Made by a program: the position numbers and the translations under genes. Shown here piece by piece: positions 18,535 to 60,258 of a stretch of 64,000 bases of DNA. The notes under the pieces are model-generated. The model did not search any database and was not told the origin of the DNA. It saw nothing but the letters and a program-made list of their open reading frames with translations. The first letter of the stretch is position 1; every line of letters begins with the position of its first letter. Origin of the DNA: Xylogone sp. PMI_703 (lineage: Eukaryota > Ascomycota > Leotiomycetes); contig JAJTUQ010000001.1 in NCBI GenBank assembly GCA_021399445.1, forward strand, positions 3,410,001-3,474,000. Direction: 5' to 3'.

Positions 18535-19682
18535 AGGTTTGAATTACTCATATATGTGTGTATATACTTGTATTCACTACTATTATCTCCTCTGAAATTT
18601 CGCCAGTATATATAAGAGCACTAACTAATTGGCCATTGCTTTTAACTTCTTTCCTTTTGTAATTGACAAAATATATACATAATTTATATATAGCCTATGA
18701 CTTAATCTACCACCAACCACTTCTCTGCGATATTTATACTACCTGGTAAAATGCATTAAGATGTGATATCCATATTTACCATAATGAAAAGTATCAATAC
18801 CCTGATCGAATTATCTAGACGAGTCGTAGGAGCACGCCAATAGCTTCCCTAGCTCTTTCTTGTCGCCAAGTCCTCCGAGTAAACTGTACCACCTATGATA
18901 GATACTTCTCCGATTCGATAGCATAAATGTGTAATGCACTAGTTCGGGTTAAGAAGCAGCTTAGATTAGGCTAAGTCATTGATGTCGTGATGAGCTCAAC
19001 CATAGTAAAGTGTATGTCCGTATTGGAACCTCTTCCATCTTCCCATCGGGGGGGGGACGAATGAGATACGTGTATGACTGACGGCTAGATCTCCGATGCC
19101 AAATGCAATTATTCGGACCCGGAGGTAGGATATGGAGACAATGCATAGGAGATTTTCTGATTGGATCTATGCCCGAATACTGCTCGGATCAGCTAGGAGA
19201 GCAGCTGTAGTATCACATGCAAAAGGATTGGAGGCAATGATTGATGTTGTTATGCGCATTATCTATATGCAAGTAACAATAACAAGAAGAGGGTGGTTTG
19301 CTTAATAACCATCTTTACCAGTCCATTGCAAAAGCAATATGAATACTGAGAAAGGAGTAGATTTTTGTAGCATAGTTTGGTCTTCTAATTGTAATTAGGC
19401 AAAAAGAGCAATTTCAACAATTCCTGGCTTCTCCTGTTAGTATTATTCTATATTGGGAGACTTATATGACATTTCGTTTGCTTTCAACAGTGACGCTTGG
19501 AGCTTGGAGTATATGCTCCATCAATTACTCAAACGAACAAGTTGAAGCATTGCCAGCAAGGAGGCCTCGAGGTGTTGAAAGCTATTCTACTTCACCTTCT
19601 TTTGAGTTCTCTTTAGCTTCACGAAACTAAACAAGAGAAGTTACTTGAGTTATAATTGGAAGCCCTCATCAACATCATCAAC
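18535..19682. promoter_or_regulatory. Intergenic region upstream of the PKS
   Basis: No gene was seen in this 1.15-kb stretch. It holds TCGGACCCGGA at 19113-19123, close to the TCGGACCGGA before the enoyl reductase, and a run of G at about 19048-19056. The last 60 bases before the PKS start include an ATCATCAAC direct repeat. It probably contains the PKS promoter. Confidence 0.4.
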
Positions 19683-25600: not shown

Positions 25601-28600
25601 GTTGATCGAATTAAACATTATGCACACAGTCAGCTCGGCAGTTAAGTCCCCTCTTGGCCACAAATTTCTTGTTCTGGGAGTACAATCAGGTACTAAGGTG
25701 CCTTTTCTGGCTCTTACTTCCTCGCTGTCATCAATTGTTAAAGTGCCAGTCCGGTCTGCAGTCTGTTATCAAGCCGGCACTCAGGGATTCTCGTACCAAG
25801 ATTTGTTAGCGACAGCTGCATCTCATCTTGTTGCTATGGCAGTTCTCGATCCACTACACAGCGGTGAAACATTGCTTGCCCATAATCCAACACAAACGCT
25901 CGCCCGAGCTCTTGCCATACAGGGAGCCGCCAAGGGTGTACATATTGTTTGTGCAACAGATTCAAGCTCAGATGGCGGTAACAAGGAATTTACCGACTCG
26001 TCATCGTGGATCAAGCTTCCTGGTTATCTAAATCCGGCCGAACTACACGAGATCCTCCTTAGTGGTCAAGTTAAGCCTTCCTCTTTTGTGGGATTCTCAG
26101 ATAACGAGTCACAAAGGTCCGAAAATGAAGCGACTATGATATCACTACTTGCATCCCAAAATGCTTGTCATATCGAGACTGCCAAGACAGTTTACTCCTA
26201 TGTTGGATCGGGAGACAAAGCGGACCCAGATGCCCAATTAGGGGAGAGACTACGTAGCGTGTTAAATTTTATACAGCAGCAAGAACCAACTCAACAATCT
26301 TTGATCTCTAGAGCCGTGCATCTGGATAGCCTTGTTCGTGGAGAAGTGCGGCCTAGTAATATAGACCCGCTGTCTATCATTGACTGGGTCACACCATCGC
26401 AAGATACAGTTTCTACTTCCACTCTGCCTACGCTACCTGTCCATATTACAAGACTTGATGGAAGCGGACCTGTTTTCAAAGGCAACGCAACGTACTGGAT
26501 CGTCGGAATGTCTGGTGCTTTAGGCATTTCTCTAGCTGACTGGATGATCAGCAATGGTGCCAGGTATATAGCTGTAACTACAAGAAATCCCAGGATTGCA
26601 CCCGAGTGGATTGCATCTCATAAGCGCAGAGGTGCTACCGTTGTGGTTCTCCCATGGTAAGATCCCAGACAAAGAATGGGGAATATAGATACTAATCAGC
26701 CTATGTCAAATAGTGATGTGACGAACGAGACTGGTCTCAGAGCAGTACATCAAAAGATTTGCTCTACCTTCCCACCAATCGCCGGGGCCATGAATGGAGC
26801 CATGGTTCTACGCGATGTTTCAATCCGCAACATGAGCTTTTCTCAGCTCACAGATGTGATCAGCCCCAAAGTCTATGGGAGCATCCACCTAGATCAGATT
26901 TTCAGAAATGTCGACCTTGACTTCTTCGTCCTCATTTCATCCATCAACTGCGTTATTGGAAACTGGGGGCAGGCCAACTACGCTGCTGCGAATACCTTCA
27001 TGAGTAGCTTGGCTGCACAACGGCGAAAGCGTGGGCTTCGGGCAGCCGTTGTCAACGCTGGTGCTATAATTGGCGCCGGATACATGGAGCGCGAGAGTCG
27101 GCGAGCGCTCGACTTAATCGTACAGAGACTGTATATGATGCGCCTGTCCGAGGAAGACTGGAACCAGGCCATCTGTGAGGCCATCGACGCAAGCAGGCTC
27201 GACTCTCCTCATGGACCCGAGCTCACAACGGGGCTGTCAGACGTTCCATTCAACACACCCAACGCCCCTGAGTGGTTCCTGAATCCCAAATTCTCCTCGT
27301 TTGTTGTCCACCAGAAGGGAAGTAAGGCAGAAGAAGATAAAGATGAAGCTGCAGGAGCGTCCCTTCAGGAGCTTCTACAGCATTGTCGATCGCAACAAGA
27401 CTTATACAAAATCATCACGCGTAAGTCCAATACTCACATATTTGCACATATTTTAACAGACCAACTAATTGGGCAAAATAGATGCCTTCGCCTCCCAGCT
27501 GCGGAATGTCCTTCAAATGACAATGTCTGATGAAGACCTCATGGCTGCGCGCAGCAACGAGATCGGCCTCGATTCCCTTGTCTCGGTCGACATCCGGACC
27601 TGGTTCCACACGAACCTACAGGTCAGCGTACCGGTTCTCAAAATCATCAGCAACGAACCCATAGCATATCTTGTTCAACATGCCGTCGAGACTATACCAC
27701 CCGAGCTCGTGCCTGAGATGAGCGGCTCTTCCTCCGATAGACAAGAACCAACAAGCAGCGGCAACACCAGCTCTCCCACCAACGGCACGGAATCAGACCC
27801 TTCAGCAGCGGACATGACATCCCCGGCGTCCACACCTTCACCAGCTCCCTACATTGACTGGGAGGCGGAGTCACGCCCCGCAGCCGAAATCGCCTCCTTC
27901 ATCCCACGTAATCCATCCTCTCCAGTTCCCGTTTCTCCTCCCAAAGTCGTAGTGTTGACGGGGGTGAGCGGTCTCTTTGGTCACCACCTTCTTGACTACC
28001 TCCTCACCCACACCGCGGCCCAAGAAATCCACTGCCTTGCCATCCGGCGTCTCGCCTCACGTCTTGCATCCCACGAGCTCCGGGAGGATCCACGCGTAGT
28101 CTACCATGAAGGTGACCTTTCCGACCCATTGCTTGGCCTTTCCTCTTCCCAGGCTGCGGCAGCCCTCTTCGCCAAGGTCGATCTCGTCATTCACAACGGT
28201 GCAGACACCTCGCACATGAAATACTATCCCCAGCTACGCGCCTCCAATGTCGATTCAACAGTGACTCTTACGCGCTGGTGCCTCCCACGCCGGATACCCT
28301 TCCACTACGTCTCATCTGCAGGCGTCGCGACGTTGTACAACAAGCATGCGGAGACAGGTGGCTTCCCAGAAATATCGATCACGGGACCGGAATCCTCGCC
28401 GCCCGCAGCAGATGGCTCGTTTGGATACATGTCGTCCAAGGTGACCAATGAGCGATTCTTGGAACGCGTATGTGCGTGGTATTCGGACTGGCGAGTATGC
28501 ATCCATCGTCCATCAACAATCATCCGCGAGGGCGCCGACGCGGCGACGAGCAAGGCTCAACTCGACTGGGTGAACGCGCTGATCACATACTCGCGACAGA

Positions 28601-28932
28601 TTCAGGCGGTGCCGCGAGTGCAGCATAACCGCGGGGCGCTAGATCTGGTGAAGGTGCAGAGTGCGTGTGAAGATGTGCTGAAACACATCTCGTTGGATGA
28701 CAAGGTGAAAGGGGTGACTTATGTGCACAATGTCGGCGACGTAGTCATTCCGATGGATCAGTTGCAGGATATAGGAACAGAAGAGGGCGCGAACGATACA
28801 CTTGCGGTGATTCCGATGAGTGAGTGGACAGAGAAAGCCGTTGAGGCTGGCTTGCATCCGGTTGTTGCAAATTTGATCGAGATGATGGATGTCGCTAATG
28901 ACTACCCAAAACTTTTGAAGTCAAGATCCTAA
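19683..28932 (+). CDS. Highly reducing PKS with terminal reductase domain (KS-AT-DH-CMeT-psiER-KR-ACP-R)
   Basis: Exons 19683-20016, 20142-24152, 24244-26656, 26714-27420 and 27482-28932; introns of 125, 91, 57 and 61 bp; 2971 residues. KS active site DTACSSS (Cys181) with EAHGTGT and GHTEGT; AT GHSSGE (Ser645); DH GHxxxGxxxxP (His982) and ELDAVLQ (Asp1169); C-methyltransferase motif EIGAGTGG (about 1446-1453), readable only after splicing; a degenerate ER remnant; KR WIVGMSGALG (2200-2209) and Tyr2342; ACP GLDSL (Ser2520); R domain TGVSGLFG (from 2648) with YMSSK (Tyr2804, Lys2808). The layout is that of PKS-NRPS hybrids with the C-A-T module absent and the reductase joined straight to the ACP, as in betaenone-type PKSs. 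It should give a methylated, partly reduced chain released as aldehyde or alcohol, with enoyl reduction supplied by the protein at 15377. Confidence 0.96.
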
Positions 28933-29860: not shown

Positions 29861-31015
29861 TTACTGTATATGGCTTTCCTGAACGAGCTTCCTCCCCTCA
29901 AATAGATTATCCCGCAAACTAATCTGCCACATCATCTCAAATTGTGTCATAGTGACTGCAGCGCAAAGCTCGTCCGGCTTTCCATCCTGTGCGTCCGAAA
30001 TCATCTGAAGATAATCCTCACGGGCTAGGTCTACAAACACCACTGGGAGGTATCCCTGTCGTATCAAGTAGTCGGCCATCAATGTTCGGCCAATTCTGCC
30101 GTTTCCATACGGAAAAGGATGGATATGTAAAAAGTAGGTAGACAAGTGTGTTGCCAGGATGACCGGATGAAGAATCTTCTCTGTGTGCTGACGGTCGCGC
30201 CACTCGATATACCGATCCATACAGGAGGAAATCTCGTCGTGATATGGGAAAATGCGCATCGGGTTGGATCTAACACCAATAGGAGTTGCGCGGTATTCCC
30301 CAATATGTGTGCGCTTGCCTCAGTTGAGAAGATGCGAGTTCTCCGCATCAGTTCCTCGAAGCATCGCCACTGAAAGTTGTTTTATGTCGGCAACAGAGAG
30401 ACCAGATGTGCCAGGATTGTTGAGGGCGGATTCAGTAATGTAGCGGCTAACAAAAACGTGATTCCGCAGCTCAGCGACTTGGTTTGCGTCCTTGTGTGGT
30501 AGAAGCTCCTCTGGGGCAGGCAGGGCAAGTGTCGAGACATCAGAAACAGACATGGTACCTAGGGATTCGATGTGACGGAAAAGTTTCCTCTCGAGTTCGT
30601 CAAAGATGACTACTGCATCGCCCAAATGTAGAGGATTCTGCTCGAGAGACGTGCTTTGATGAGCATATTCAGGGACTAGGGCTCGAAGAAGAGCTATCTT
30701 GCTCTTCTCATTCTTTTGATATAATAGTTTCAGCTCATCGATCGAAGAGAGGGTCTGCTTGAGGTCTGATTGAGCCTGCAAGTAAGGTTCGATATTTTCA
30801 GGCTTGAAAAAGTTTTCCCAGACCTTACCAGATCTTGCTAAAGCCAGGTATTCTGGTGAGTCTTTCTTGAGACTTGCAAATGCCGGATGATAGACGGATT
30901 TGAGTAAATCGAGACGTGTCTGAGTGGCGTGACGTCGCACGGATTGTAAATTGATGTGAGAATTCAATTTTCCTATGGTCCCCGTCGGTTTACGAGGGAG
31001 CCGTGACCCAAACAT
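29861..31015 (-). pseudogene. Fic-domain protein, interrupted by one in-frame TGA
   Basis: One reading frame of 384 residues is cut by a single TGA at 30320-30322; both halves are in the same frame. The N-terminal 231 residues are helical and of no clear family. The second half holds the Fic motif HPFPYGNGRIGR, which transfers AMP or another nucleotide part to target hydroxyls, preceded by PIGVRSNPMRIFPY. No intron with acceptable signals removes the stop in frame. Either it is a fresh pseudogene or the stop is read through. It ends only 25 bp from transposon copy 1. Confidence 0.75.
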
Positions 31016-31804
31016 GGTAGGGATAGTTGCTAGAGATTGTGATGAAGCAAAGATGCAGAGAGGTCTTGATTTGTGGACAAGCTATCTAATTTAGCGTGGC
31101 CGTTACCGTGATGAGTCAATTACAACATAATTAGCAAAGGGTTGTTGATTCTATTTTAATTCCAACAATGCGCATTATTCTAGCCCATACGCAAATATTG
31201 GCGCATGGGCTAGAACATATAGAATATAGAAACGGCAAGAAAGCTCTAGGCTTCGTTCGATAAGGATTAGATGGGCTTACTTCTTTTGTTTGTTGCATAT
31301 AACTAGAAAGTCTCGAGAACAGTGCGAGGCTCGGTGGGACGGATGGGCGAACGAAACGGTGCGTTCAAAGTACACCCAATTTCAGATTCTAAGAAAAATT
31401 CTCACGAATTATCCTGAGTTAGCGAAAGCTGAGCTTTGTTGTCGTTGAAGAGCATGTTGACATAGCATACAATTATCATCGGGTCCCATTACTTATCTAG
31501 AAGCTTGAGTAAAACAGATATGTATGGATACTAAATGATATACTGGAACGTATAAATCGTCTATTTTTAAAATGAAACTGCAGTAACCAGTGGAGATTGA
31601 ATTACTGCGTCAGAAAAGAATACTCCACTCAACAGGAAGTCTAACCTATGCTAGATACATATTACAAAGTCATAGCCATATCGGCCAATGGCCACTTAGA
31701 TGTTGTAGGAAATTAGGCCCGCATGCACCTACGGATGTGGCTTTTACTACGAGTAATCTAGCACACTTCCTCACCACACCTGAATTCTCTTCTCCGAATA
31801 ATCA
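31016..31804. other. Intergenic, no gene recognised
   Basis: The stretch upstream of the Fic frame and downstream of the HD-domain gene. It contains a CGCAAATATTGGCGCATGGG-like dyad near 31190-31210 and a weak 72-codon frame at 31590-31808 that shows no motif. Confidence 0.35.
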
Positions 31805-36166: not shown

Positions 36167-37225
36167 CTAACCCAGTTTTCTCTCTTGATAATATTTTCCA
36201 CCGGGTTGGCGTTCATCAACCCATTTTCGCAGCACTCGAATGTCTCGGCAAGCGTGAATTTGCTCAGAGTCGATGTAAAGATGGCCAAGACTGTCGACAA
36301 ATTTTGTGGGAACTAGATTTGTACTGCCATAACATTGGATCGACTGTCGAATAGTATCAAGGCAGTGTTCTCAAATTCACAAATTAGCAACTAATTTAGT
36401 ATCATGGCATGAACAGCTATATACCTAAATGTATCTCACCATGTACTGGTGTAAATGGATAGCGTTCCTGGTAGAAAGCTTTCCGGACAAAATCCTGTAG
36501 CGGCATCAACATTAGATTTCGAGTACTTGTAGAACGTAAATCAAACACTTACGAGACAGTGTAATGTATGGAATACATCTAGCCTAATGAAATTCATGTT
36601 AGCATCAATTAAATCCTTTCTGGGAAATTTTTAAAAGACCCACACAGCAGTAAACCCCGGAGGGTCTTCGTTCCAGTACTCCATGTAGCTGTCCCCCCAC
36701 ATAGATTTTGCTTCGTCTTCCGATATAGACATTCCGGAAGGCATTAAGAGTCTCTTCCAGTTGGCATCAATTTCGTCGCTCGGCGGGCCAAAATACGTTT
36801 CGTTATCAGGCCATGGAGTATTAGGGTCTACCTTAGGTCTCCAACTTGTTCCATTGTCAAAAAATCGTGGGGAGCCAGTGAACCGAACTTCGCGCAAAGG
36901 AACATGAATTGGTAAAGCTAATGATGGAAGTGTAAGAGATCATAATGATTTATACGTGTGTAACGGGGTTCTTACGAATCTCGGATCTGAATCCGTCTTC
37001 ATAAGACCCAAGAGGATCCTGGATATGCCTAGCCAAGCACACAATGTAGCCTGCTGTAAATGACAACAGAATCGCTACACTAGGAATCAGGATATGAGCT
37101 ACTAACTTCACCCTCGAGCGATGTAACTGCCTTGCGGTATCTCTATTTTCTAGAAAAGGCTTTTCCTCTGCAGGGCAAGATCCGAATTCAGAATTCTCTT
37201 GGTCTGACTCCGATGATATTTTCAT
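36167..37225 (-). CDS. UstYa-type (DUF3328) oxidative cyclisation protein
   Basis: Five exons (minus): 37225-36976, 36917-36644, 36583-36553, 36494-36425 and 36369-36167; 275 residues. A single membrane span lies at about residues 43-65 (LVAHILIPSVAILLSFTAGY), after a charged N-terminus. The two defining HxxHC motifs appear only after splicing: HTLHC at 180-184 (on a 31-bp exon) and HLEHC at 207-211, followed by DTIRQSIQCYG and HACRDIRVLR. UstYa-family proteins carry out oxidation and ether/C-C cyclisation on dikaritin core peptides, and related steps in cyclochlorotine-type pathways. The junction between exons 2 and 3 (GTGGGT donor) is the least certain. This supports a peptide cluster to the right. 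Confidence 0.88.
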
Positions 37226-37918: not shown

Positions 37919-39888
37919 TTAGACGATTAAGATATTTGACGAGATATATTTCCGAGCCTCAGTAAAGTCGAAACTATCATGTGCCGTTCTTACATCTTGG
38001 CTAATCTCCCAACACCTCTCAAGTAGCTTGGTCACCTCACGAAAGGCGCTAACTCGCACAACCTTTGGGGACGACAACAAACACCTAAAGATACCATGCT
38101 GGTCAGGCTCAGCCACACTACCTGCAACGCACAGAGGCCAACGCAGGGAATGCAACAACTCTGGATCGCTAATATAAGCGTATGATTCAAGCGCACGGTC
38201 GACTTCCTTTTTCATTTCTGGCAGTTGTGGGAAAGGTCCGGACATAATCATTTCTAGGAGTATGGCAACAGAGCACGCAAATATGTGTGTTATCACAGAT
38301 ATTTCAAACTCCAAGTTTTGAAATTCAGTGCTTTCGCCATCATGACTCTCCAATCCTTCTTTTCTGAACTTGTTCATTTCTTCTAGATTAAGTGAGATCT
38401 GTTTCTCAAGTCTCTCCTTAGTTACGTGAACCTTTAAGGCCAGTTCCCTTGTACTCAATAACCCTGTAGCTTTAGCAGTCTTCTTCCAGTGGCGCAGGGA
38501 ATAAATGTCTAAAAGAATGTCGAAGAGCCAAACACGACAGCTCAAAGCACTCTCTAAGACACTCTTGTAGCACTTCATTCTGAGTATACGTTGGTAATTA
38601 CCACTCAACGCTAGCTCAGAATTCCTCGTTAAGCTTGATAGTATGTCAAATTTCATGATAGATCCGATCAAAAAAATCTTTGTCGACTCCTTAGAGCAAA
38701 TATTGTCTGGGTGTGTCTTATCTACCTGGTTTATGGGACAGGGTTCGAAGATTTGATCGATCCAGACGGCAACAATGGATGTACCCGCCTGAAGATGCAC
38801 AAGCCAGTCGATCTCATTGGAGTTTTGTAGAAGCTATTGAATTTATTATAAGCGTGGGTGATAAGTAGAAGACTGGTTCCACATACTGTTGAATACATAA
38901 ACATAATTATACAAGCAACAATACACCCGTTGTCATATGATTTAGAATCTTGCAGCTCACGCTGGAGCTCTTTGATCGTTAACCCGTATTGATGTGTATA
39001 CTCGCCGCCATTCAGTCCGAATGATGGCTCTTTCAAACCTTTCTCGAGACTTCTGTGAGTACGACTTAAGGTAAGAATTGCATTATATAGCGACTGCGAA
39101 TTAGACACCAGCCATAAAATATGGCCCTGATTGAAATCTGGTGAGTGAAAGGAGCAAAATCGGAATTGCCAGCTAAATACTTCGTTCATGTAGTAGGCTA
39201 GAAGCATTGCATCTTCAATACTGTCGATTTCCAACGAGCATCTCCTAGCAGGAAGCTTAGTTTCCGTGGAGATATCCATATCCGAAGAGTTTAGAGGTAC
39301 GGATAACTCAATATCAGTTAAGAGTAAATGCGTACCATCGAGAGGCACTGAATCATCTTCTAGCATATGGCTGTATGGGAAAAGAGACCCTATGTCGTCC
39401 ACTAGAAATGGTTGAAATTCAGTGAGAGCCACACCGGGACCGAAGAGGTCAGAGACCGTAGAATAGTTTTGAGAAGTTATGTTAAATTGATTATTACCAG
39501 CCGGGGGGCTGCTAGTTGATGGAGAGGAAATAGAACCATTTTGACCAACGATGGGCTGGTTTGATGCCACTGGAGAAGTCATTGGGATTGAGGGTGGCCG
39601 GGTGCCAGGTTCGGTGTTTCTTCGTGCACTGTTCATTGTTGAATCTCGTTGGCTATTAATCTGATTCACGTGTTTCTGTCTCTTTAACTCTCGAATTCTT
39701 TGCTTGATCTTTTCTGCCTGAGCCTTTTGCTTGGCTCCTCTGTCCATCCACTCAGGCCTCTCGCCTTGTCCATGACACTCAATGGCTAGATTGGAACACT
39801 CAGAGCAAATTGGTCTCCGCTCGTCGCATTTTCTCTTTCTTACACGGCATGTCCAGCAGCCTTTTTGACTTCGAGCATCAGTTGCCAT
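37919..39888 (-). CDS. Zn2Cys6 transcription factor
   Basis: Exons (minus) 39888-38887 and 38833-37919 (53-bp intron), 638 residues. The zinc cluster starts at about residue 11: CWTCRVRKRKCDERRPIC, then CSECSNLAIEC, with CX2CX6C-type spacing. It is followed by a basic, coiled-coil-like stretch (KQRIRELKRQKH) for dimerisation, a Ser/Pro/Asn-rich linker and a helical fungal-specific regulatory domain to the end. The splice restores MFMYSTLLQNSNEIDWLVHLQAG. It lies next to the UstYa-type gene and is the most likely local regulator of the right-hand cluster; that role is inferred from position. Confidence 0.9.
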
Positions 39889-40725
39889 TGTGGTATAAGA
39901 GGTTAAATTTCGATGTGAGCAAAGAGCAACCGTATAGGTATATGGTGTGTTTATTTAACAATTAGACAATAGAGCATAGTAAACTTTGTAATAGTAAACA
40001 GTAGCCAGTTTACTTCAGTACGCATTTATTATCGACATAAAGAGGTACCGGTGAAATATTCGTACAAGACTACCAGTGGAGCGCCCCTCACACGAGATAA
40101 TTGTCCATATCTAATTATTAGCAGATGAAATACAATCAAGTAAACCCGAGGATCGTCTTGATTACGTGTGTATTGCCGTAAGTGGTAACGTAGAGCTTAC
40201 TTATCGCCGCCTCGCTCCACTGCACCACAGAGGTAAGCTTTTGACCGGAAAATGGTTAAAAAGTGGACCATGGAGGCCTGAGATTAAGACAAGGGGTAAA
40301 CCAGTAAAGACTCATTTTTAATGACTGGTAGATACAATGCTGAAACGTCAGATTTTAGTTTAACGATTGAACCCTAAAACTGCCCTGTAGAGTAAGGCGC
40401 TGTATATTTGGTGAGATTTAGGTATTGAACCCACTAGAATGATTAAGATACCAGCAATGCCAGCCCCTCTTTGCGCGAGCCACCGGCTGTCCCACTTTTA
40501 CATTTCTCTGGGTCAGACTTGAAAATAGTGCAATATAGGGATACTGGAATAGGTATAGTTGTAATCTTATGTTAAAATGCCAGAAAATAGGAGAAAAGCA
40601 CAAACCCCGCTCTCGTAACTGTATGTAAGATTTGACAAGGGCCGCGAGAAACATATAACCTCAGTTAGGAAAGTTTACTTCCCCGTCCCCTGCTAGGGCT
40701 GGGGCAAACGACAGCGTAGTATCTC
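39889..40725. other. Intergenic, no gene recognised
   Basis: The promoter side of the Zn2Cys6 gene, running up to transposon copy 2. No coding frame with a recognisable motif. Confidence 0.35.
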
Positions 40726-42565: not shown

Positions 42566-43255
42566 ATGTATTCAGATTCAGAACATACTCACATTCATGG
42601 AAGAGAATCCAGCGAATCTTTACTCCACGATGAACATGGCGAGCCCAAAGTCGAAAGAAAAACACAGCATAGGTTTGCTGCCTCGAGAGCAAAGTCTCTA
42701 ATCGGCCTCGGATTAGGAGTAATTCTACTACTCTCACTCACTACCATCTGGATGTCACAGCCAACTTGCAAAGCTGAAACTCGACCAGATCCCCCGGATC
42801 GTCATTACTGTGGGAAGACATCTGAAGAGGCAGTCCAGAGGGGTTGCCGTTATGAGCCCATGTACAGCTCATGGATCCCAGATATCTGCTACACCACCGA
42901 GCCCGCACCCGAATACGATCCCTATTCTGATCTGGACTGGTACTCCGATGTTGACTTGAAATACCCTCTTACAGAGCGCGAAATGGCAGGGCTTAGGCAG
43001 GGAAATTTCACTCGTGTGTATACTACATGGCGGTATCACGATCAACATTGTCTATATGCATGGAGGAAGCTCGCAATAGCTGTTGAAAAACGCTTGCCGT
43101 TCATTGATACTAAGAGCGTCGAGATAGAGCATTCAGAGCATTGCGCAAAGAATTTGACAAATTATGTTCGTCATGAGAAGGATTATGTGGCGGAGATGAA
43201 CATTGGATCATTCATGATACCAATGATGATGCAAGGGTGCGTTGCATTGTTCTGA
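42566..43255 (+). CDS. Divergent UstYa-like HxxHC membrane protein, paralog A
   Basis: Single exon, 229 residues. The start is the ATG at 42566; the 11 codons before it contain no ATG. A membrane span lies at about residues 43-62 (SLIGLGLGVILLLSLTTIW). A conserved block follows: YCGKTSEEAVQRGCRYEPM, then WIPDIC. The two HxxHC motifs are HDQHC (158-162) and HSEHC (189-193), 26 residues apart, close to the spacing in the canonical UstYa-type protein at 36167. The protein ends QGCVALF. It shares this whole layout with the genes at 46616 and 59542. It may be a copper-type oxidase/cyclase of the RiPP pathway; that function is inferred. Confidence 0.78.
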   Translation: MYSDSEHTHIHGRESSESLLHDEHGEPKVERKTQHRFAASRAKSLIGLGLGVILLLSLTTIWMSQPTCKAETRPDPPDRHYCGKTSEEAVQRGCRYEPMYSSWIPDICYTTEPAPEYDPYSDLDWYSDVDLKYPLTEREMAGLRQGNFTRVYTTWRYHDQHCLYAWRKLAIAVEKRLPFIDTKSVEIEHSEHCAKNLTNYVRHEKDYVAEMNIGSFMIPMMMQGCVALF

Positions 43256-44325: not shown

Positions 44326-44974
44326 TCATTCCTGAATATTCTCAACTGCATCTCCTCGCATACGGAGGATCTGTATCATAGGAATTTTGTTAAATGATGC
44401 TTGTCAACCTATCAAGAAGATGATCACTTACTACTTCCTCCTTGGCGGAGTAGGCATCTCCACGCTTCTCAATTTCTTTGATTTCTTTAACTTTGTCTCC
44501 TCTCATACGGAGAATCTGTATTATAAGATTTATTAAAAATTTTATTAGAGTAGAACATTGACAATACTCACTACTTCCTCTTTAGCAGAATGCGCATCGT
44601 TACGCTTCTCTAATTCTTTAATATCTCTAACTTTGTCTCCTCTCATACGAAGAATCTGCACCATAAGTCTGTTAATAGCTTTGATTTAGTAAAAGAAGCT
44701 GTTAATGCTCACAACTTCTTCCTTAGCAGAATGAGTATCGCCACGCTTCTCAATTTCTTTGATATCTGGAACTTTGTCTCCTCTCATGCGGAGAATCTAT
44801 ATCATAAGGTCTGTTAACAACTCTAATGCAGTGAAGGAAATTATCAATACTCACTACTTCTTCCTTCGCAGAATAAGCCTCACCGCGCCCCTCCAAAGCC
44901 TTGGAGTTTCCAAAAATGGGGGATGCAATAGAAAAGCCCAAGAAAGCAGAAACGAGGAGAATGGAGAACTTCAT
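44326..44974 (-). CDS. Secreted repeat precursor peptide with kexin sites (dikaritin-like RiPP/KEP precursor)
   Basis: Five exons (minus): 44974-44855, 44796-44713, 44655-44572, 44515-44432 and 44370-44326; introns of 58, 57, 56 and 61 bp, all phase 0; 138 residues. A signal peptide (MKFSILLVSAFLGFSIAS) is followed by a short leader. Exons 2, 3 and 4 are each exactly 84 bp and encode a 28-residue repeat: ILRMRGDKV, a variable segment, IKE(I/L)EKR, then (G/N)Dx(Y/H)SAKEEV. Exon 1 ends with the second half repeat (GEAYSAKEEV after EGR) and exon 5 has the first half (ILRMRGDAV). Lys-Arg sites in the middle of each full repeat are kexin cleavage sites, so four related peptides would be released in the Golgi. 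This is the architecture of fungal KEX2-processed repeat proteins and dikaritin precursors. The nearby HxxHC proteins support a RiPP role. The product is unknown. Confidence 0.87.
44432..44854 (-). repeat. Three tandem exon-plus-intron units of about 141 bp
   Basis: The unit, intron plus 84-bp exon, repeats three times, with exon ends spaced 142, 141 and 140 bp apart. The exons are closely similar; the introns resemble each other at the donor (GTGAGTATT / GTGAGCATT) and before the acceptor but differ inside. The array thus grew by duplication of a whole exon-intron unit. Confidence 0.88.
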
Positions 44975-45747: not shown

Positions 45748-46145
45748 TTACATATTCTGCTTGATAGTCTCCTCAATGGCGTTAGGGTTAGCGCCAATAA
45801 CTTGACCAATTTTCTCCCCCTCTTTGAAGAAAGTAAAGGTTGGCACCGCGCGAATTCCTAGCTCTTGAGCTACTTCCGGCATCTCGTCAATGTCGAACTT
45901 GAGGAACTTTGCATGGGGATATGTATTGCTTAGTGATTCCACCTTGGGGAATATGGCTTTACAAACACCGCACCAAGTAGCATCGGCGTCCAGGATAATG
46001 AGTTGTGACGGGCTATTGATAGCAGCCTTGAAGTCGGCGTTGCTGGAAAGAATCAACATTTAACATATATCATCGGAATTCAGTGGCGATGCAGAAAATA
46101 GATCCGTCAATCAATGTCTTACCTTTTGAGGTGGTTGACGACCAT
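45748..46145 (-). CDS. Thioredoxin with variant WCGVC active site
   Basis: Exons (minus) 46145-46123 (only seven codons plus two bases, MVVNHLK) and 46042-45748 (80-bp intron), 105 residues, the classical thioredoxin size. The active site is WCGVC (31-35), with Val where most thioredoxins have Pro. The fold signature is otherwise complete, including FDIDEMPEVAQELGIRAVPTF with the cis-Pro. No signal peptide, so it is probably cytosolic. It lies between the precursor gene and HxxHC paralog B and is divergent from the latter. A cluster role is possible, but housekeeping function cannot be excluded. Confidence 0.92.
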
Positions 46146-46615: not shown

Positions 46616-47293
46616 ATGAGTAGCAAGTTTTACAAAGATTTTGACTCTCAGAGCGACGTTGATATGGTGGATACCCGCCCCATTGTGCGTCGTTCATCTG
46701 CTCTACGCTCCATCCTGCTTGGATGCATCGGCAGCTTAACATTGGCAGCTTTCTTGATCACAGTGGTACGATATCCATGGTCTACGGGCGATTCTGGCTA
46801 TTACACGTTTACAGACTGTGGGAGAACGGCAGACCAAGCCAGAGAAAGGGGGTGTCATTATGAGCCAATGGGTCGTTATTGGGTTCCTCCTGAATGCTAT
46901 TTCCCGGAGTCATCTGAGCAATATCATCCATTCCGGGACCGAGAGTGGTTCGTCGATACAAACCTGACAATTCCAGCGAATAAAACTCGTCTCGAATCAG
47001 GGGATGCTATTCGTGCTTTTACACGATACTGGCATGACGAGCATTGCACATTTGTTTTGCGCAAATTGGTTTTGGCAGTCGCTCTCAAGAAGGAAATGGT
47101 CAATACGCTGCTTGGACAGATGGACCATGTCAACCACTGCGCAACATCTATCGGGAAAACTATCAAGAATGCATATAATGAATCATTTCTGCAATATGAC
47201 CAGTCAATAACTGAAAGCCTGCTGGGCTTTCAAGGCTGTGTACCGCTCAGGTTTGTGTTGGCTTATATCGGAAGAATATTTTATATGAACTAA
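46616..47293 (+). CDS. Divergent UstYa-like HxxHC membrane protein, paralog B
   Basis: Single exon, 225 residues. Membrane span at about 32-52 (SILLGCIGSLTLAAFLITVV). The block FTDCGRTADQARERGCHYEPM then YWVPPEC matches paralog A, and the HxxHC motifs are HDEHC (140-144) and HVNHC (171-175), again 26 residues apart. Sequons NLT and NKT fit a lumenal domain. The tail after QGCVPL may be an unspliced intron: a GTTTGT donor at about 47251 with a branch-like AACTAAT and an ACATAG acceptor would give a short SSLTI ending, closer to the paralogs. Proposed role as for paralog A. Confidence 0.8.
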   Translation: MSSKFYKDFDSQSDVDMVDTRPIVRRSSALRSILLGCIGSLTLAAFLITVVRYPWSTGDSGYYTFTDCGRTADQARERGCHYEPMGRYWVPPECYFPESSEQYHPFRDREWFVDTNLTIPANKTRLESGDAIRAFTRYWHDEHCTFVLRKLVLAVALKKEMVNTLLGQMDHVNHCATSIGKTIKNAYNESFLQYDQSITESLLGFQGCVPLRFVLAYIGRIFYMN

Positions 47294-48324: not shown

Positions 48325-49317
48325 ATGGCAACAGAAATTCTACCTCCAGCAAAGGGATTATTCTACTACGCTGAGCCAGATATTGACAAGTACAATCCCG
48401 AGAGTTGTGGCTACTTTGCTTCACCGCGTTTTAAAAAGATATGCACGGTAGAGGCAGCCCTCCATGATCTCCGCCCAACAATCTTTTCTGAATCATCTCC
48501 ATACACACTTGAGAAGTATGGATTTATGGGCATCAAACATAAGTCTGCCTATTTGGAGGTTCCCAAAGCAACAAATATCCTGAAGGAAGATTCGCAGGGT
48601 ATAAACTCGGTATATGTGCCTGAAGTGCGAGAGCTTATCCGCAAATCTACAGGCTGCAAGGAAGTCTTTATATTAAATGTTGCAGTTCGAGATAACAGTG
48701 CAAAACCACCGACGGTTATCGACAAGCCCTTGGTTGACTGCGGTACACAACTAGATCCAGCGAAAACCAACCTTAACAAGGCTGTGTTGCCAGCAGATAT
48801 GAACGGCGCCAAACTTGGTCCAGTGCGCAGTGTCCACATTGACTTTTCTCCTCAAGGTGTTCAACAAATGATTCGGCATGCGAGGGATGATGTGGTAGCA
48901 CATTCTCAGGACATAATTGCCGCTGAAGAAGCCGGCCAACCGGCTCGTAGATACGCAATGTATAGCCTCTGGCGTCCACTCAGAAAAATAACTCGGGATC
49001 CTATTGCTCTCATTGACCCTGATTCATTCGTATTTGATAAGGAACTCATAGAATTCGTAAACAGGCAGCCTGGAATCAGTGGCGACTTCTGGACTGGAGT
49101 TCACCTAGTTAGTCCAGATGCTGCAAACCAACACAAATGGTATTACATTCGTGAACAGGATCAAGACGAGGCGCTTCTTATTCAATTGTACGATAGCTAT
49201 GCAAGGCAGGAGGGTAGGCCTATTGGAACACCGCACGCAAGTCCAGATATGACATCGGGCATTCCGGAGGGAGGATGGAGGGAAAGTATTGAGACTCGGG
49301 TTATGGCATTTTGGTGA
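48325..49317 (+). CDS. AsaB/CmcJ-like oxidase (putative Fe(II)/2OG-type hydroxylase/desaturase)
   Basis: Single exon, 330 residues. The start is the ATG at 48325. It has the N-terminal pattern of this fungal family (GLFYYAEPDIDKYNPES), a likely HxD metal pair in SVHIDFSPQG (His171, Asp173), the signature YAMYSLWRPLRKITRDPIAL, the block HLVSPDAANQHKWYYIREQD and a late His in GTPHASPDM (His304). Relatives are annotated as GA4 desaturase-like, AsaB or CmcJ-like proteins and are frequent in fungal metabolite clusters. Here it could hydroxylate or desaturate the modified peptide. Catalytic residues are assigned by eye. Confidence 0.85.
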   Translation: MATEILPPAKGLFYYAEPDIDKYNPESCGYFASPRFKKICTVEAALHDLRPTIFSESSPYTLEKYGFMGIKHKSAYLEVPKATNILKEDSQGINSVYVPEVRELIRKSTGCKEVFILNVAVRDNSAKPPTVIDKPLVDCGTQLDPAKTNLNKAVLPADMNGAKLGPVRSVHIDFSPQGVQQMIRHARDDVVAHSQDIIAAEEAGQPARRYAMYSLWRPLRKITRDPIALIDPDSFVFDKELIEFVNRQPGISGDFWTGVHLVSPDAANQHKWYYIREQDQDEALLIQLYDSYARQEGRPIGTPHASPDMTSGIPEGGWRESIETRVMAFW

Positions 49318-50075: not shown

Positions 50076-53000
50076 ATGTCAGCTTCATCTTCAGCATCCG
50101 CTTCTGAGTCATCTGAAAAGCAAATAAGAGATGGACGGCTCGTAAGAGAGCCGTTCGTAACAACCAAAGATGAACAGATAATCTTGAGTAACCAACTTCA
50201 TACGGCAGGAGCTAAAGTTAGTTATCTAAGCCTTTATCGATATGCGGATGGTTGGGACTGTCTTGTCATTTTCATCAGTGCCATTTGTGCAGTGGCAGGA
50301 GGAGCAGCAATGCCATTGTTTACGGTAAACCAGAGTAGATGCTTATACAACAGACTTTGTTGTTGCTAATATGTTGTATAGATTCTACTTGGCCAGTTGA
50401 CATCGTCGGCTCAGGGGTTTTTTAATGACTCTACGTCTCACCATGACTTTACTTCACAGCTCGTGAAGAACACCCTGTATTTCATATATATCGGAATTGT
50501 TCAATTCACTTCTATTTTTATTTCGATCCTGGGTTTTATATATACAGGAGATCGTATAGTACAGAGGCTTCGGGTAGAATACCTAAGGGCAATACTCAGA
50601 CAGAATATTGGTTATTTCGATATCTTAGGAGCTGGAGAGGTTACGACTCGTATTACTGCTGATACGAACCTTGTGCAGGAAGGTATTTCTGAAAAGGTCG
50701 CGCTTACATTGACCGCACTAGGAAGCTTTTTTACTGCGTTTATTATTGCTTATATCAAATACTGGAAACTCGCCCTTATTTGCAGTTCAACTTTTGTGTT
50801 CTTAGTTATTCTCATGGTTGCAGCATCCATTTCCACGGTCAAATTCAGCAGACGATCTCTCCAGAGCTACACTATCGGTAGCAGTTTGGCTGAACAGATA
50901 ATCAGTTCTATTAGAACTGTCACTGCATTCGGTTCTCAGGAAAAGCTTGCAATGCAATATGAGATTCATATAAAGGCTGCTTCGATTCATGGACTAAGGC
51001 TACAGGTTTTCATGGCAATATTGGTCGCTGCACATTTTAGTCTCATATTTCTCAATTATGCTTTAGGATTTTGGACTGGTTCACATTTTCTCGTCAAAGG
51101 CGAAGTCGAAGCAGGCCAGGTTGTGACAATATTGACCGCAGTACTTCTCGGCTCATTCAGCATAGTAAATGTTGCTCCTCACGGTGAGGCTTTTGCAAAC
51201 GCGGTAGCAGCAATGGGTAAAATATATGGCACAATTGATCGAATATCTCCTTTGGATCCAACTACGGGAGAGGGAAACACCCTGAGTCATGTTGAAGGAA
51301 CCGTGGAACTACAAAATGTGAAGCACATCTATCCCTCCCGCCCGGACATAACGGTTATGAGTAATGTGAGCTTGCTAATCCCGGCTGGAAAGACGACAGC
51401 TCTTGTGGGGGCCTCAGGATCAGGAAAGAGCACTATCATCAGCTTAATAGAGCGGTTTTATCAACCTGTTCAGGGAAGTATTCTACTAGATAGATACGAT
51501 ATTCAAACTTTAAATCTCCGATGGCTGCGCCAACAAGTCTCCCTGGTCAGTCAAGAACCTCGTCTCTTCGCAACCTCCATTTTTGAAAATATCAAATTTG
51601 GGCTTGTCAACTCAGTGTTTGAAAATGAATCCGAACATCAGCTGCGAGAAAGAGTTAAGAGGGCAGCTCGAACAGCTAACGCACACGATTTTATCATGGA
51701 ATTGCCTGAAGGATACGAGACACAAGTCGGGGAACGCGGAAACCTGTTGTCAGGAGGGCAAAGACAGCGGATTTGTATTGCTCGTGCTATCATCAAAAAC
51801 CCTAAAATACTTCTCTTAGACGAGGCTACGTCGGCGTTAGACACTAAATCTGAGGGTATTGTCCAAGCTGCTCTGGACAAGGCAGCTGAAGGCCGCACTA
51901 CAGTTGTCATAGCCCATCGATTGTCAACTATCAAGACTGCTCACAAGATCGTTGTCTTTGATAATGGCCACATAGCAGAGGAAGGAAGTCACGAAAATCT
52001 TCTCAACAGGAATGGTATCTACTCAAAGCTTGTTGCAGCACAGCGCATGAAGGAACTGAGCGTTGACCATAGAATTGAGGCACAAGGCTTGAACGGAGGA
52101 CCACCACAAAAGGAAACCATAGGAGATGGTACTACTAGAGATTTGACAGAACAGATACCAAGCGAAATTGCAAAGTTCGACAGAATTTTAGAAAAGACAA
52201 CAAAAGTCCAAATACCCGAAGATAATGAATCCAATATCGGTGCTTTTAAGATGAGCGATGAGACCAGCCCGAAGTACTCACTTTGGACGTTGACCAAATT
52301 TACCGCCTCATTCAATCACCGCGAAGTTGGACTAATGCTGATAGGCCTTTGCTTTGCGGTGCTTGCGGGCGGAGGCCGGCCGTCCCAAGCGATACTTTAT
52401 TCTAAAGCAGCTGAGACGTTAATATACCCTCCTAGCTTGTACAAAAAACTGAGACACGATGCGAATCTCTGGTCCCTTTTGCTTCTCACTATGGGGATTC
52501 TTCTGTTTACATTCTATCTCATTCATGGTGTCCTGTTTGCATTCTGTTCCGAGAAGCTAGGTTATCGTGCAAGAAGCCAAGGATTCCGAGCAATACTGCG
52601 TCAAGATGTCGCCTTTTTTGATAGACCAGAGAATAACACAGGTGCTCTAACGTTGTTTCTATCATTGGAGACAAAAAGATTATCCGGTATCAGTGGTGGT
52701 AACCTTGGGACTCTTCTAAATATATCAACAACCTTCGTCGCTTCTTTAATAATAGCCCTCGCTGTTGGATGGAAGATGGCTTTGGTTTGTATCTCATTCG
52801 TCCCTATACTTTTAGGCTGTGGGTATTATCGGTTTTGGATGTTAGCAGAATTTGAGGCAAAAGCGAAAAGGGCTTATTACGCCTCAGGAGGATACGCATG
52901 CGAAGCTATTTTAAGCATCCGGACCATTGCATCTCTCAATCTGGAACATCATACTTTATCAACTTATTCTCATCAACTTGAACAGCAAGCGAGGGAAAAT

Positions 53001-54135
53001 CTTATTTCAGCTTTCAAGTCATCTTTGCTATATGCAGCTTCTCAAGGCCTCGGTTACTTGTGCATGGCTCTTGGATTCTGGTACGGAGGAACTCTTCTCG
53101 GAAAACGTCAATACTCTATCTTTCAGTTCTTTCTCTGCTTTAGAGGGGTTATATTCGGAACGCAATCCGCAGCCACAATGTTCTCATTTGCCCCTGATAT
53201 GGGCAAAGCCAAGGCTGCTGCTGCTGAGCTGAAAAGACTCTTTGACCGCAAGCCCCTGATCGATGTCTGCTCTGAAGTCGGGGAACACATTGATGGCATG
53301 GAAGGTGCAATCGAATTTCGTAACGTCCATTTCAGATATGATACTCGCCCAGATCAACAAGTGCTCCAAGGGCTGAGCTTAACCATCAAGCCTGGACAGT
53401 ACGTGGCTTTTGTCGGTCCAAGCGGCTGTGGGAAAAGCACTGCAATCGCCCTTCTAGAGCGCTTTTATGATGTTTCATTAGGAGCCATCTATGTGGATGG
53501 AAGGGACATTTCGAACCTCAACGTCAACCAATTTCGCAGCTTCCTTTCACTTGTGAGCCAGGATTTAACACTTTATCACGGCACAATTCAAGAAAACATT
53601 CTATTGGGCAGCAATAGCCCTGATGTCCCCCATGAGAATATAGTCACAGCCTGCAAGAGCGCTAACATCTATGATTTCATCTTATCATTGCCGTAAGCAT
53701 TCTAATATGGTTAAACAAAAGCGATTGTTTCTCACTTACGATTCTAGTGACGGCTTTGACACCCTAGTAGGTAACGGCGGTATTATGCTTTCTGGTGGAC
53801 AAAAACAACGCATTACTCTAGCTCGCGCGTTACTCCGTGATCCCAAAATTCTCCTTCTAGATGAAGCAACGTCTGCTCTGGATTCTGAATCAGAAAAGGT
53901 AGTCCAAGCAGCGCTCAATACCGTGGCCCAGGACCGTAGCCGGACGATCATCGCAGTTGCTCATCGTTTGAGTACGATACAAGATGCAGACATCATCTAT
54001 GTTTTTGATCATGGCCGTATTGTGGAAAGTGGGACTCACCAAAGTCTCATACTCAACAAGGGTCAATATTACGAACTAGTCAATTTGCAAACTCTTGAGG
54101 AAGTTCCGGCAGATAGTACTACTCTGAACGCCTAA
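50076..54135 (+). CDS. Full-length ABCB (MDR-type) ABC transporter
   Basis: Exons 50076-50324, 50382-53692 and 53748-54135; introns of 57 and 55 bp; 1315 residues. The order is TMD1-NBD1-TMD2-NBD2. The first Walker A is GASGSGKST (about 426-434), with signature LSGGQRQR and Walker [13 protein letters not shown]. The second Walker A is GPSGCGKST (about 1095), with LSGGQKQR and [12 protein letters not shown] formed across the last exon. Both ATP sites look intact. It is probably a plasma-membrane or vesicle exporter of the cluster product, giving self-protection. The family includes drug and a-factor peptide pumps, so a peptide substrate is reasonable. Confidence 0.95.
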
Positions 54136-55059: not shown

Positions 55060-56527
55060 TTAGACAACATATTTACAATCTATTTGATCTTCAGGTTCAT
55101 TTTCTAGTGAAGTGATTGACCCTACAGGTAGATATGAGTGTCTCTCCGCTTGGCGGTTCCTTGTAGCCAAGTAAGCTCGTAAAACCAGTGCCAAAAATCC
55201 TCCAAATGCCATTATCGCAGCGCACAGTCCAAGGCCTCTGGGATGGTTTGGTTCGTCAATGGCTCGCCAGTATGGTTTTATTCCAGCTGGAGAGAAGATA
55301 GTCGCAAGTTGTCCAGCAACTAGAAGCTCTGTCAAGAGTAATGCGCGCTCATATTCCGAGTCCACATTGCCTAAAGCCCAGGAAATAATGACCGTTATAG
55401 CACAGTAACATCCTATACACGTGAGGAATATTGCAAAATAAAACCATAATTCGCTCCAGCCGAAACTTGCAGCAATTGACATCAGAGCAAATCCTAAGCA
55501 GGACAGAAACATATAAAAGCTGGCATAGTAGCCGCGCACTTTCGTCTTTGCTGATGCCTTCACCGTGATGAAAATCGAGAACAAAGCAATAAGGTACGGA
55601 GCCATCATTAATATATGGAAACCTATGTGAGATGAACTGAGGTCTGCAAATACTGTGAAGAAGTAGTACGGCACATAAGCAAACGATGTGTGCGATTGCA
55701 ACCCCAAGTAAGAAGGCGCCGAAGCAGCAGCCAAATTAGGACAAACGTAGATGGCAACACACAGAAGATTTTTCATGTTGAAGATCCTCACAATCCCGCG
55801 TTTCCAGGTTCTCTCATCATTTGGTTCTCTGAACCTTGAATGAAGGAGAATGCTATCAGGAACATTAGGCAGTCGTAACCACAGTGCGAGGCCAATGAGG
55901 ATACCAAGTATTCCGTCAATAGCGAAGATGCCACGCCAGTTGAGACCCAAGGTGTCTTTGAGGAAATTAACCACTACGGCCATAAGTGGTCCAATAACCG
56001 AAATCTGAAAGGGGGTGATAGCCACGAAAACCGCAACAGCCAATGTCAAGTCACTAGGTGAAATTCTACAAAGCAACAACAATGCTCCCGGAAAGACCGC
56101 ACCACCGATTCCCAGCAAAGATCTCACAAGGAGTAGAAACCAAGCGGACGGTGAAAAGATTTGCGCAAGTACGAGCGTGGACTGTATGGAGATTGTGATT
56201 AAGATGAGTTTTCGGACATTGGCTGTATGCCATATTGATAGTAGCCACGCGAATGCAAGAAGGACGAACTTGGTGTCCGTGTATGTCTCTTCAGACTCGC
56301 CTTGGCTCAGCTCGAGGTGCGATGCTAGCCCTGCGGTTCTTGCATAGCCAAAGACTGTTATATAATGAGTACTGGTTCCTTTAATTAAATTTCCACAGCA
56401 AGAGTTGAGTTTAAGGCTTACAAATATCATCTAATTGCCACCACGCATATGGAAGTAAAATATAAAGATAAAATGATAATTTGGGCCTGTATTTAATTCC
56501 GTTTCCAAACTCTCTTGGGTGATCCAT
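55060..56527 (-). CDS. MFS transporter, anion:cation symporter-like
   Basis: Exons (minus) 56527-56422 and 56354-55060 (67-bp intron), 466 residues. The start is the best in-frame ATG (CCATGGATC context). About 10-11 membrane spans follow. FGYARTAGL near the N-terminus matches the (N)IGNARVAGL segment of Dal5/allantoate-permease-like carriers, and RSLLGIGGAVFPG and NWRGIFAIDGILG also fit. The N-terminus is shorter than usual and lacks the DRR...P lead, so an extra 5' exon or a truncation is possible. Could move a small acid or peptide. Confidence 0.8.
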
Positions 56528-59541: not shown

Positions 59542-60258
59542 ATGGACAAGTTTCTGAGGAGAGCAAAGTCAATTGCGATCCCAAATATTTTAAGACACGA
59601 TGAACAGAAGTCCGTTGACGGCGAGCCACTGCTTTTCAGCGTAGGGTCTCCCCCCGCTAGAACAACTTTCCAGCTCTCCACAATAACTATAAAGAACTCT
59701 TTTCGATACCTCATCGTATGTCTCGTCACATCTCTAGTATGGTGGGCGGTTTTGAGACTCTCTCCTACTCAATACATGCCGAAATCGACGACAACTATGT
59801 ACCTTCACTGTGGAGAAACAGCTTCTGAAGCACGAGAACTCGGTTGCCAATTTGATCCTTTGGCGGTCATGTGGGTTCCTGGGCCCTGCTTTGACAATGA
59901 AACTCTACAAGAATATTATGATTATCAAGAAGAAATGGCATGGCTTGGTTACGATGATATGGACTACGAGCAGCGAATAGACTTTCAAACAATGTCAGAA
60001 CGAGTGGCTGGATCGGATCTTCCCCCATATTACACGACACGACGAGAACACACCATTCATTGTGGCTTCATGTTGCAAAGACTGCATAAAGGATATTTAA
60101 CTGATCCAAACACATTAGATGAGGAGTTACTGAGTTTTCATCACACTCGACATTGTGTGAAATTTTTGCTTGATTCTATGAGTAAACCCAAATGGGAACT
60201 TGACAGTCTCACAACCAAGAATAAGCCAGGGTTTTCAAGCTGTGTCATTGAGGTATAA
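59542..60258 (+). CDS. Divergent UstYa-like HxxHC membrane protein, paralog C
   Basis: Single exon, 238 residues. Membrane span at about 54-73 (FRYLIVCLVTSLVWWAVL). The lumenal block LHCGETASEARELGCQFDP and MWVPGPC matches paralogs A and B. The HxxHC pair is HTIHC (170-174) and HTRHC (201-205), with the same 26-residue gap. The end FSSCVIEV resembles QGCVALF of paralog A. It lies 12-17 kb from the other two copies, beyond the transporters, and sets a likely right limit for the RiPP cluster. Confidence 0.78.
   Translation: MDKFLRRAKSIAIPNILRHDEQKSVDGEPLLFSVGSPPARTTFQLSTITIKNSFRYLIVCLVTSLVWWAVLRLSPTQYMPKSTTTMYLHCGETASEARELGCQFDPLAVMWVPGPCFDNETLQEYYDYQEEMAWLGYDDMDYEQRIDFQTMSERVAGSDLPPYYTTRREHTIHCGFMLQRLHKGYLTDPNTLDEELLSFHHTRHCVKFLLDSMSKPKWELDSLTTKNKPGFSSCVIEV

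Follow-up and report, generated by a model that had tools for sequence, protein, structure and literature searches.

The locus described here raises the question of whether a small gene in which each full peptide repeat occupies an exon of its own encodes the precursor of a fungal RiPP, and whether such a layout is peculiar to this one gene. Positions given without a contig are those of the window, the whole 64-kb stretch of DNA analyzed. The gene spans positions 44974-44326 on the minus strand. It is a spliceable five-exon gene with a signal-like start, four peptide units, a KR pair after three of them, selection on its amino acids, and UstYa neighbors. It likely encodes the precursor of an ustiloxin-type (Kex2-processed repeat) RiPP pathway, and the precursor class assigned to it in an earlier, sequence-only reading of this DNA is probably correct.

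As read from the sequence, the precursor gene is composed of exons of 120, 84, 84, 84, and 45 bp. Exon 1 (44855-44974; 40 aa) codes for a signal-peptide-like start and for GEAYSAKEEV, the opening half of peptide unit 1, exons 2 (44713-44796), 3 (44572-44655), and 4 (44432-44515) each code for one full 28-residue repeat with a KR inside, and exon 5 (44326-44370) codes for the final half repeat of 14 aa followed by the stop codon TGA. The four introns (44797-44854, 44656-44712, 44516-44571, and 44371-44431; all minus strand, like the exons) fall in the range of 56-61 nt, being 58, 57, 56, and 61 nt long in order, and all are GT-AG introns in phase 0; the donors are GTGAGT, GTGAGC, GTGAGT, and GTAAGT, the acceptors all AG, and the identical residue pair, V|I, is interrupted four times. 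Spliced, the gene gives a protein of 138 aa that runs from a hydrophobic start through ten repeat residues and the three full repeats to the final half repeat, with KR at residues 57, 85, and 113. The sequence-only reading had proposed just such a 138-residue precursor, with one 84-bp exon per full repeat, a KR inside every repeat, and half repeats at both ends, and this layout is borne out. Residues 4-17 are hydrophobic (mean Kyte-Doolittle 2.21) and are followed by SIASPIFG; judged by inspection, this start resembles the N-terminal ER signal peptide expected of KEPs (PMC7329392). With its four units set apart by Kex2 sites, the precursor appears by inspection to have both sequence features that define KEPs in the available text of that survey (PMC7329392), and we do not claim its membership among the dikaritins as proven. 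In genomic DNA the starts of the ILRMRGD motif are spaced 141, 140, and 145 nt apart, so the unspliced repeats do not share one common frame, and such a layout may easily be overlooked by gene finders.

Genes of the UstYa type lie on both sides of the precursor. A canonical UstYa gene (PF11807/DUF3328), with introns and the motifs HTLHC and HEHC, is found 7.1 kb away at 36167-37225 on the minus strand, its outer limits and splice sites placed by eye. It has two PF11807 matches above the cut-off (1.6e-8 and 2.1e-8); one of its exons, scored alone, reaches 24.6 bits vs a cut-off of 25. Three UstYa-like genes are on the plus strand. Gene A (42566-43255; HDQHC and HSEHC) is one open frame with a single hydrophobic N-terminal stretch and, like gene B (46616-47293; HDEHC and HVNHC), is under every Pfam cut-off, PF11807 not being matched by either, while gene C (59542-60258; HTIHC and HTRHC) touches PF11807 with an E of 0.082 and 13.2 bits vs a cut-off of 25. 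In all three the starts of the two HxxHC motifs are 31 residues apart, and an N-terminal hydrophobic stretch is seen by eye. All four UstYa or UstYa-like genes are within 15.3 kb of the precursor, the two nearest at 1.1 and 1.6 kb. The double-HxxHC genes that the sequence-only reading had placed at the locus are thus confirmed as flanking the precursor on both sides, and the canonical UstYa gene nearby is an addition to them.

The locus also encodes a Zn2Cys6/Fungal_trans_2 transcription factor, found by domain search in two open frames (37919-39954, minus strand), an ABC transporter in two open frames (50382-54135, plus strand; PF00664 and PF00005 in the first frame, the second by eye), and an MFS transporter (55060-56430, minus strand; PF07690 7.5e-14). 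The cluster membership of two further genes is uncertain: a thioredoxin gene between the precursor and gene B (45748-46059, minus strand; PF00085 7.8e-25) and a gene for a PF27522 protein (48325-49317, plus strand), which has that family as a precomputed label and no match in an older copy of Pfam. The PF27522 protein presumably resembles small fungal oxygenase families. Tyrosinases (UstQ type) and S41 peptidases are frequent, though not universal, in dikaritin clusters; none of the 13 tyrosinase matches and none of the 5 S41 matches in the genome falls in the window. Tyrosinase matches are found in or adjoining other UstYa or UstYa-like clusters, at 8.0965-8.103 Mb of contig C1, 6.467 Mb of C19, and 0.32 Mb of C5.

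Genes A, B, and C belong to a larger divergent family with two HxxHC motifs. A search of the organism's own genome (50.1 Mb) returned 42 matches for gene A and 41 for gene C, some of them fragments of single genes, and the family loci yielded 33 different open frames that each carry two HxxHC motifs. In the 29 of these that were aligned (one frame at a locus edge and three short ones were excluded), both HxxHC motifs are invariant along with three Cys, one Ala, and one Trp ahead of them, and two Gly are nearly so. The resulting pattern ahead of the motifs is C(G)...A...(G)C...W...C, in which the unbracketed letters are invariant in 29/29. With an E of up to 1, 12 of the 29 members touch PF11807 (best 1.1e-5), and any other Pfam family is touched by at most one member. 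Among ten members scored singly against PF11807, L032 passes (25.8 vs 25 bits), one reaches 21 bits, and eight have nothing at an E of 0.01; that the family wholly escapes PF11807 is ruled out by L032. A profile of the 33 frames aligns at both motifs with three canonical proteins (E 2.6e-4 for a single comparison, probability 42%, from a thin three-sequence alignment). We interpret the family as a remote offshoot of the UstYa/DUF3328 superfamily.

In the genome, the family clusters with UstYa. None of the 42 family places overlaps a PF11807 match among the 51 of 108 such matches, those nearby, that were compared. The 42 matches form 24 clusters, and a PF11807 match is found no more than 15 kb from 18 of them; when clusters were placed at random on six large contigs, 2000 draws averaged 0.9 such clusters and never exceeded 5. 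A tree was built from the 29 frames with 190 or more residues, of which 13 come from clusters that bear a repeat array. Every member of the eight-gene group that contains genes A and B (support 0.788, or 0.883 for seven of the eight) is from such a cluster, and gene C is paired with a member of another array-bearing cluster (0.872). The tree does not include the sequences at C21:3531k that are closely related to gene A (51% and 40% identity). A fold model of gene A based on three sequences places the HxxHC motifs on two helices, at a mean pLDDT of 46.6 that is too low to count. The 29-member profile had no match at E <= 1 among PDB sequences, the 29 members gave one stray match only in NCBIfam, and gene A found itself alone in a large protein collection that is apparently thin in fungi.

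Like the copper enzymes of the DUF3328/UstYa type (CctR, AprY, UstYa/UstYb), the products of genes A-C carry two HxxHC motifs after an N-terminal hydrophobic stretch, as these enzymes are described in the available part of PMC12435403; unlike them, they fall under the PF11807 cut-off and have the extra Cys/Ala/Trp pattern ahead of the motifs. According to the same source, CctR is a binuclear copper enzyme, and metal binding by its HxxHC motifs has been shown or modelled (PMC12435403). The dikaritin class is defined, as cited in PMC12048977, by an enzyme of the DUF3328 (UstYa) type that carries two HxxHC motifs. The locus has one canonical gene and three divergent ones of this description, which may act on the precursor.

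The unit in which kexin would read the precursor differs from the exon. It gives four peptide units of 24-26 residues, each straddling an intron, with termini GEAYS...EIE, GDTHS...ELE, NDAHS...EIE, and GDAYS...IQE from unit 1 to unit 4; unit 1 is preceded by GR rather than KR, and unit 4 ends at the stop codon. The predicted trimmed peptides, with their computed unmodified monoisotopic masses, are GEAYSAKEEVILRMRGDKVPDIKEIE (2974.54 Da), GDTHSAKEEVILRMRGDKVRDIKELE (3023.58 Da), NDAHSAKEEVILRMRGDKVKEIKEIE (3036.60 Da), and GDAYSAKEEVILRMRGDAVENIQE (2692.31 Da). The block SAKEEVILRMRGD is invariant across all four, and the sole aromatic position reads Y, H, H, and Y in order, so Tyr is found in units 1 and 4 only. 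The tripeptide RGD, within RMRGD, is likewise in all four peptides, probably by chance. The genome has one match to the kexin P-domain. In the proposed pathway, the pre-mRNA would be spliced at the four introns and the protein would enter the secretory pathway, where cleavage by kexin behind each KR and trimming of the basic residues would leave four peptides. The membrane-bound copper HxxHC enzymes of the neighboring genes would then oxidize or cross-link the peptides, and the transporters of the locus may export them.

A RiPP product is favored because repeat-peptide arrays adjoin 9 of the 24 clusters of the divergent family in the DNA examined, the window included, and because most of these clusters (18/24) lie near UstYa. 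Counting against it are the GR before unit 1, the lack of a tyrosinase or S41 peptidase in the window, the 15 of 24 clusters in which no array was seen, and the two of four peptides that have His for Tyr and no aromatic residue. Dikaritins are described, in the literature available in part, with a cross-link through an aromatic side chain, and the missing Tyr weakens the standard tyrosine-based dikaritin reading. The identification of a repeat-type RiPP precursor made from the letters alone is partly supported, namely for the exon-per-repeat layout, the KR-separated repeats, the signal-like start, and the HxxHC genes on both sides. The cores of dikaritins and epichloecyclins are short. As units of 24-26 residues exceed them, either further trimming has to be assumed or the product is different in kind. 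Together, the missing aromatics and the peptide length suggest a chemistry other than the tyrosine cross-linking seen in ustiloxin, asperipin, and epichloecyclin as one possibility, and modification of just some of the units, or of none, as another.

If none are modified, the gene could encode a kexin-processed precursor of linear secreted peptides (signal, pheromone-like, or effector-like), with the HxxHC genes serving another product. The length, polarity, and charge of the units and the His for Tyr in two of them fit that alternative, as does the finding that KEPs without DUF3328 neighbors are the majority (6120/7878) in the available text of the survey (PMC7329392); against it stand the canonical UstYa and three UstYa-like genes so close to the precursor, and several of the closest paralogs of the neighboring HxxHC genes accompany other arrays. 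Pheromone precursors, three exceptions aside, almost all lack DUF3328 neighbors according to the part of PMC7329392 available, and the window precursor has no likeness to MF_alpha, the Pfam family of the fungal alpha-pheromone precursor, at an E of up to 0.1. Linear unmodified peptides are in our view an unlikely product.

Much less probable still is that the repeat protein is secreted and functions without being cut, in the wall for instance. The KR pairs would then be incidental, yet KR stands at a constant place in 3/3 full repeats while its flanks vary, and the context of the locus is that of RiPP precursors. The charge of the repeats could suit such a protein, and there is a precedent in the Epichloe repeat protein SspN, which has a predicted kexin site and for which the available text reports the uncut size only under the conditions tested (PMC6374014). 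Least probable is a decaying or silent repeat locus, to which the greater divergence of intron 4 might point; the reading frames, the splice sites, and the bulk of the amino acids were kept despite a synonymous dS of about 0.72.

The array stands out from the rest of the window. Its Tandem Repeats Finder score is 504, the other two rows for the window scoring 51 and 56. All 15 of the 5-residue words that occur three times within 700 bp in the 64-kb window come from the array; of ten Markov-1 simulations of the window, nine yielded no such word under the same scan and the tenth yielded one. No second, weaker precursor was found between 35 and 62 kb of the window with 4-residue words present four times, and protein and DNA searches for paralogs of the precursor in its own genome returned this locus only.

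The repeats also bear the marks of selection on the spliced peptide. Counted by codon position (1/2/3), the three pairs of full exons differ at 4/2/8, 3/1/9, and 3/2/10 sites; dN is 0.08-0.12 and dS 0.72-0.73, estimated from only 28 codons, giving a dN/dS of about 0.13, 0.11, and 0.16 across the three pairs. Since the exons differ mainly at third positions, with a dN/dS of about 0.11-0.16, the spliced peptide appears to be under selection. Some of the introns are clearly related as well. In shuffling tests, 0 of 500 shuffles attained the observed score for intron pairs 1-2 and 1-3, 5 of 500 for each of 1-4 and 2-3, 21 of 500 for 2-4, and 49 of 500 for 3-4; introns 2 and 3 are kin of intron 1 (z 6.6 and 5.8), and intron 4 has at most weak kinship to the others (z 2.6, 1.9, and 1.4). 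The mutual relationship of these introns suggests that exon and intron were duplicated as one unit, and the peptide sequence has stayed conserved since that duplication. Under this scenario, the layout arose by tandem duplication of one symmetric exon with its intron, a unit that would preserve the reading frame at any copy number.

Splitting of the repeats by introns is not confined to the window. Besides the arrays in the nine clusters, L002 has one next to a canonical UstYa gene, for ten arrays in total, and three of the ten (the window, L004, and L075) are intron-split, in phases 0, 2, and 1, respectively. The L004/L076 precursor (C22, about 3.721 Mb, minus strand) has 79 residues, with repeats ending in EKRQTYVA, 54-bp exons, and phase-2 introns, and adjoins two UstYa genes. 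The L075 array (C19, 1.4962-1.4972 Mb) encodes 194 residues with eleven copies of NQENRKLA and has seven phase-1 introns, five of which lie between repeats, the other repeats being fused without an intron. No KR pair is present in the L075 array, so it would be a repeat precursor but an atypical kexin substrate. The splice sites of L004 and L075 were chosen by hand from the sequence. The introns of L004 are interrelated (0, 2, and 1 of 500 shuffles attain the score), and those of L075 are mostly unrelated; among its 21 pairs, 3-4 stands out (1/500), followed by 1-5 (11/500). As the internal exons are symmetric in all three models, the frame would stay intact if repeats were gained by duplication, lost, or even left out during splicing.

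The other seven arrays (L030, L016/L077, L022, L023/L079, L043/L078, L058/L081, and L002) are contiguous, have differing cores, and lie beside UstYa or UstYa-like genes; that of L030 consists of eleven copies of DFAEPLLGE, without tyrosine. For the 15 clusters without an array, mostly about 1.5 kb either side of the gene was examined. No array was seen in six further flanks of 2.5-3.5 kb (L082-L087), in the 5.7-kb far-side flank of one array-bearing cluster (L073), or in the DNA examined at C21:3521-3537k, the site of the close gene A relatives, including 7.4 kb at C21:3522-3529k (L074). We considered whether introns slow the homogenization of repeats and dropped the idea, as intron-split arrays (0.28-0.54) and contiguous ones (0.32-0.62) show no difference in the number of synonymous differences per identical residue.

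The window protein is unlike the L004 and L075 precursors (best E 0.59). Between L004 and L075 there is a weak likeness (best E 4e-5 for these repetitive sequences, uncorrected for composition), and the full independence of the three intron-split precursors was dropped on that account. At least two origins rather than three are therefore claimed, and three are possible. We put forward tentatively, as somewhat less likely than not, that RiPP precursors here arrived more than once at a recurrent design that gives each repeat its own exon, in phases 0, 1, and 2, with partner enzymes that include the HxxHC branch that mostly escapes the profile.

Like the ustiloxin-type KEPs UstA, PhomA, and AprA, the window precursor has a signal-peptide-like start, KR-separated repeats, and UstYa-family genes nearby. 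Unlike them, its repeats are split by introns, its units have 24-26 residues, and the window has no tyrosinase or S41 peptidase. The precursor had no match over the cut-off in Pfam, a best E of only 0.24 among PDB sequences, and none at E <= 1 among 3947 candidates from the large protein collection. As that collection has some fungi (Rasamsonia, Thermoascus, Xylariaceae) and seems thin in them, the absence is weak evidence. The claim of a novel repeat, made from the sequence at first reading, agrees with these database searches and extends no further than they do.

Like GigA of Epichloe, the window precursor has four repeats with a KR site, a likeness drawn by description from the available text of PMC6514808. 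Among known precursors GigA seems the nearest in layout to that of the window. In the original gigA study the repeat is reportedly 27 residues long, against 28 in the window. Epichloecyclins are reported, in the portions of the literature available, with a tyrosine cross-link, unlike what would be expected of window units 2 and 3, which lack Tyr. The nine dikaritin clusters of Venturia inaequalis, including that of Cin3, were identified by matching repeat-bearing secreted proteins to DUF3328 genes (PMC9632046). The comparison is by description only, and intron-split repeats go unmentioned in the text examined of that source (PMC9632046). No kexin-processed or RiPP precursor that gives every repeat its own exon is described in the literature searched, as far as its available texts go and with the original gigA and victorin papers outside its scope; the words "intron" and "exon" are absent from the main texts of PMC7329392, PMC12048977, and PMC6339444.

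As one more KEP the peptide, although new, would be unremarkable; the novelty would lie in the recurrent intron-split design and the little-recognized enzyme branch. In the fungal repeat-precursor survey, 14,491,621 annotated proteins were filtered for signal peptides and tandem repeats, and DUF3328 neighbors were looked for, according to its available text (PMC7329392). A precursor in short exons can escape the first, annotation-based step, and enzymes below the PF11807 cut-off can escape the neighbor step. With 3/10 arrays intron-split, fungal RiPP loci may outnumber reports. If the recurrent design is true, an entire class of loci would go unseen in surveys of fungal RiPPs that start from annotation, precursor and enzyme alike, and the design would provide a natural case for the joint multiplication of introns and coding repeats.

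Two other regions of the window drew our attention. Large open frames at 19656-28932, which we take to carry motifs like those of an iterative polyketide synthase, probably belong to a separate gene cluster, and minus-strand frames at 29861-31081 contain HPFPYGNGR, presumably the Fic protein motif.
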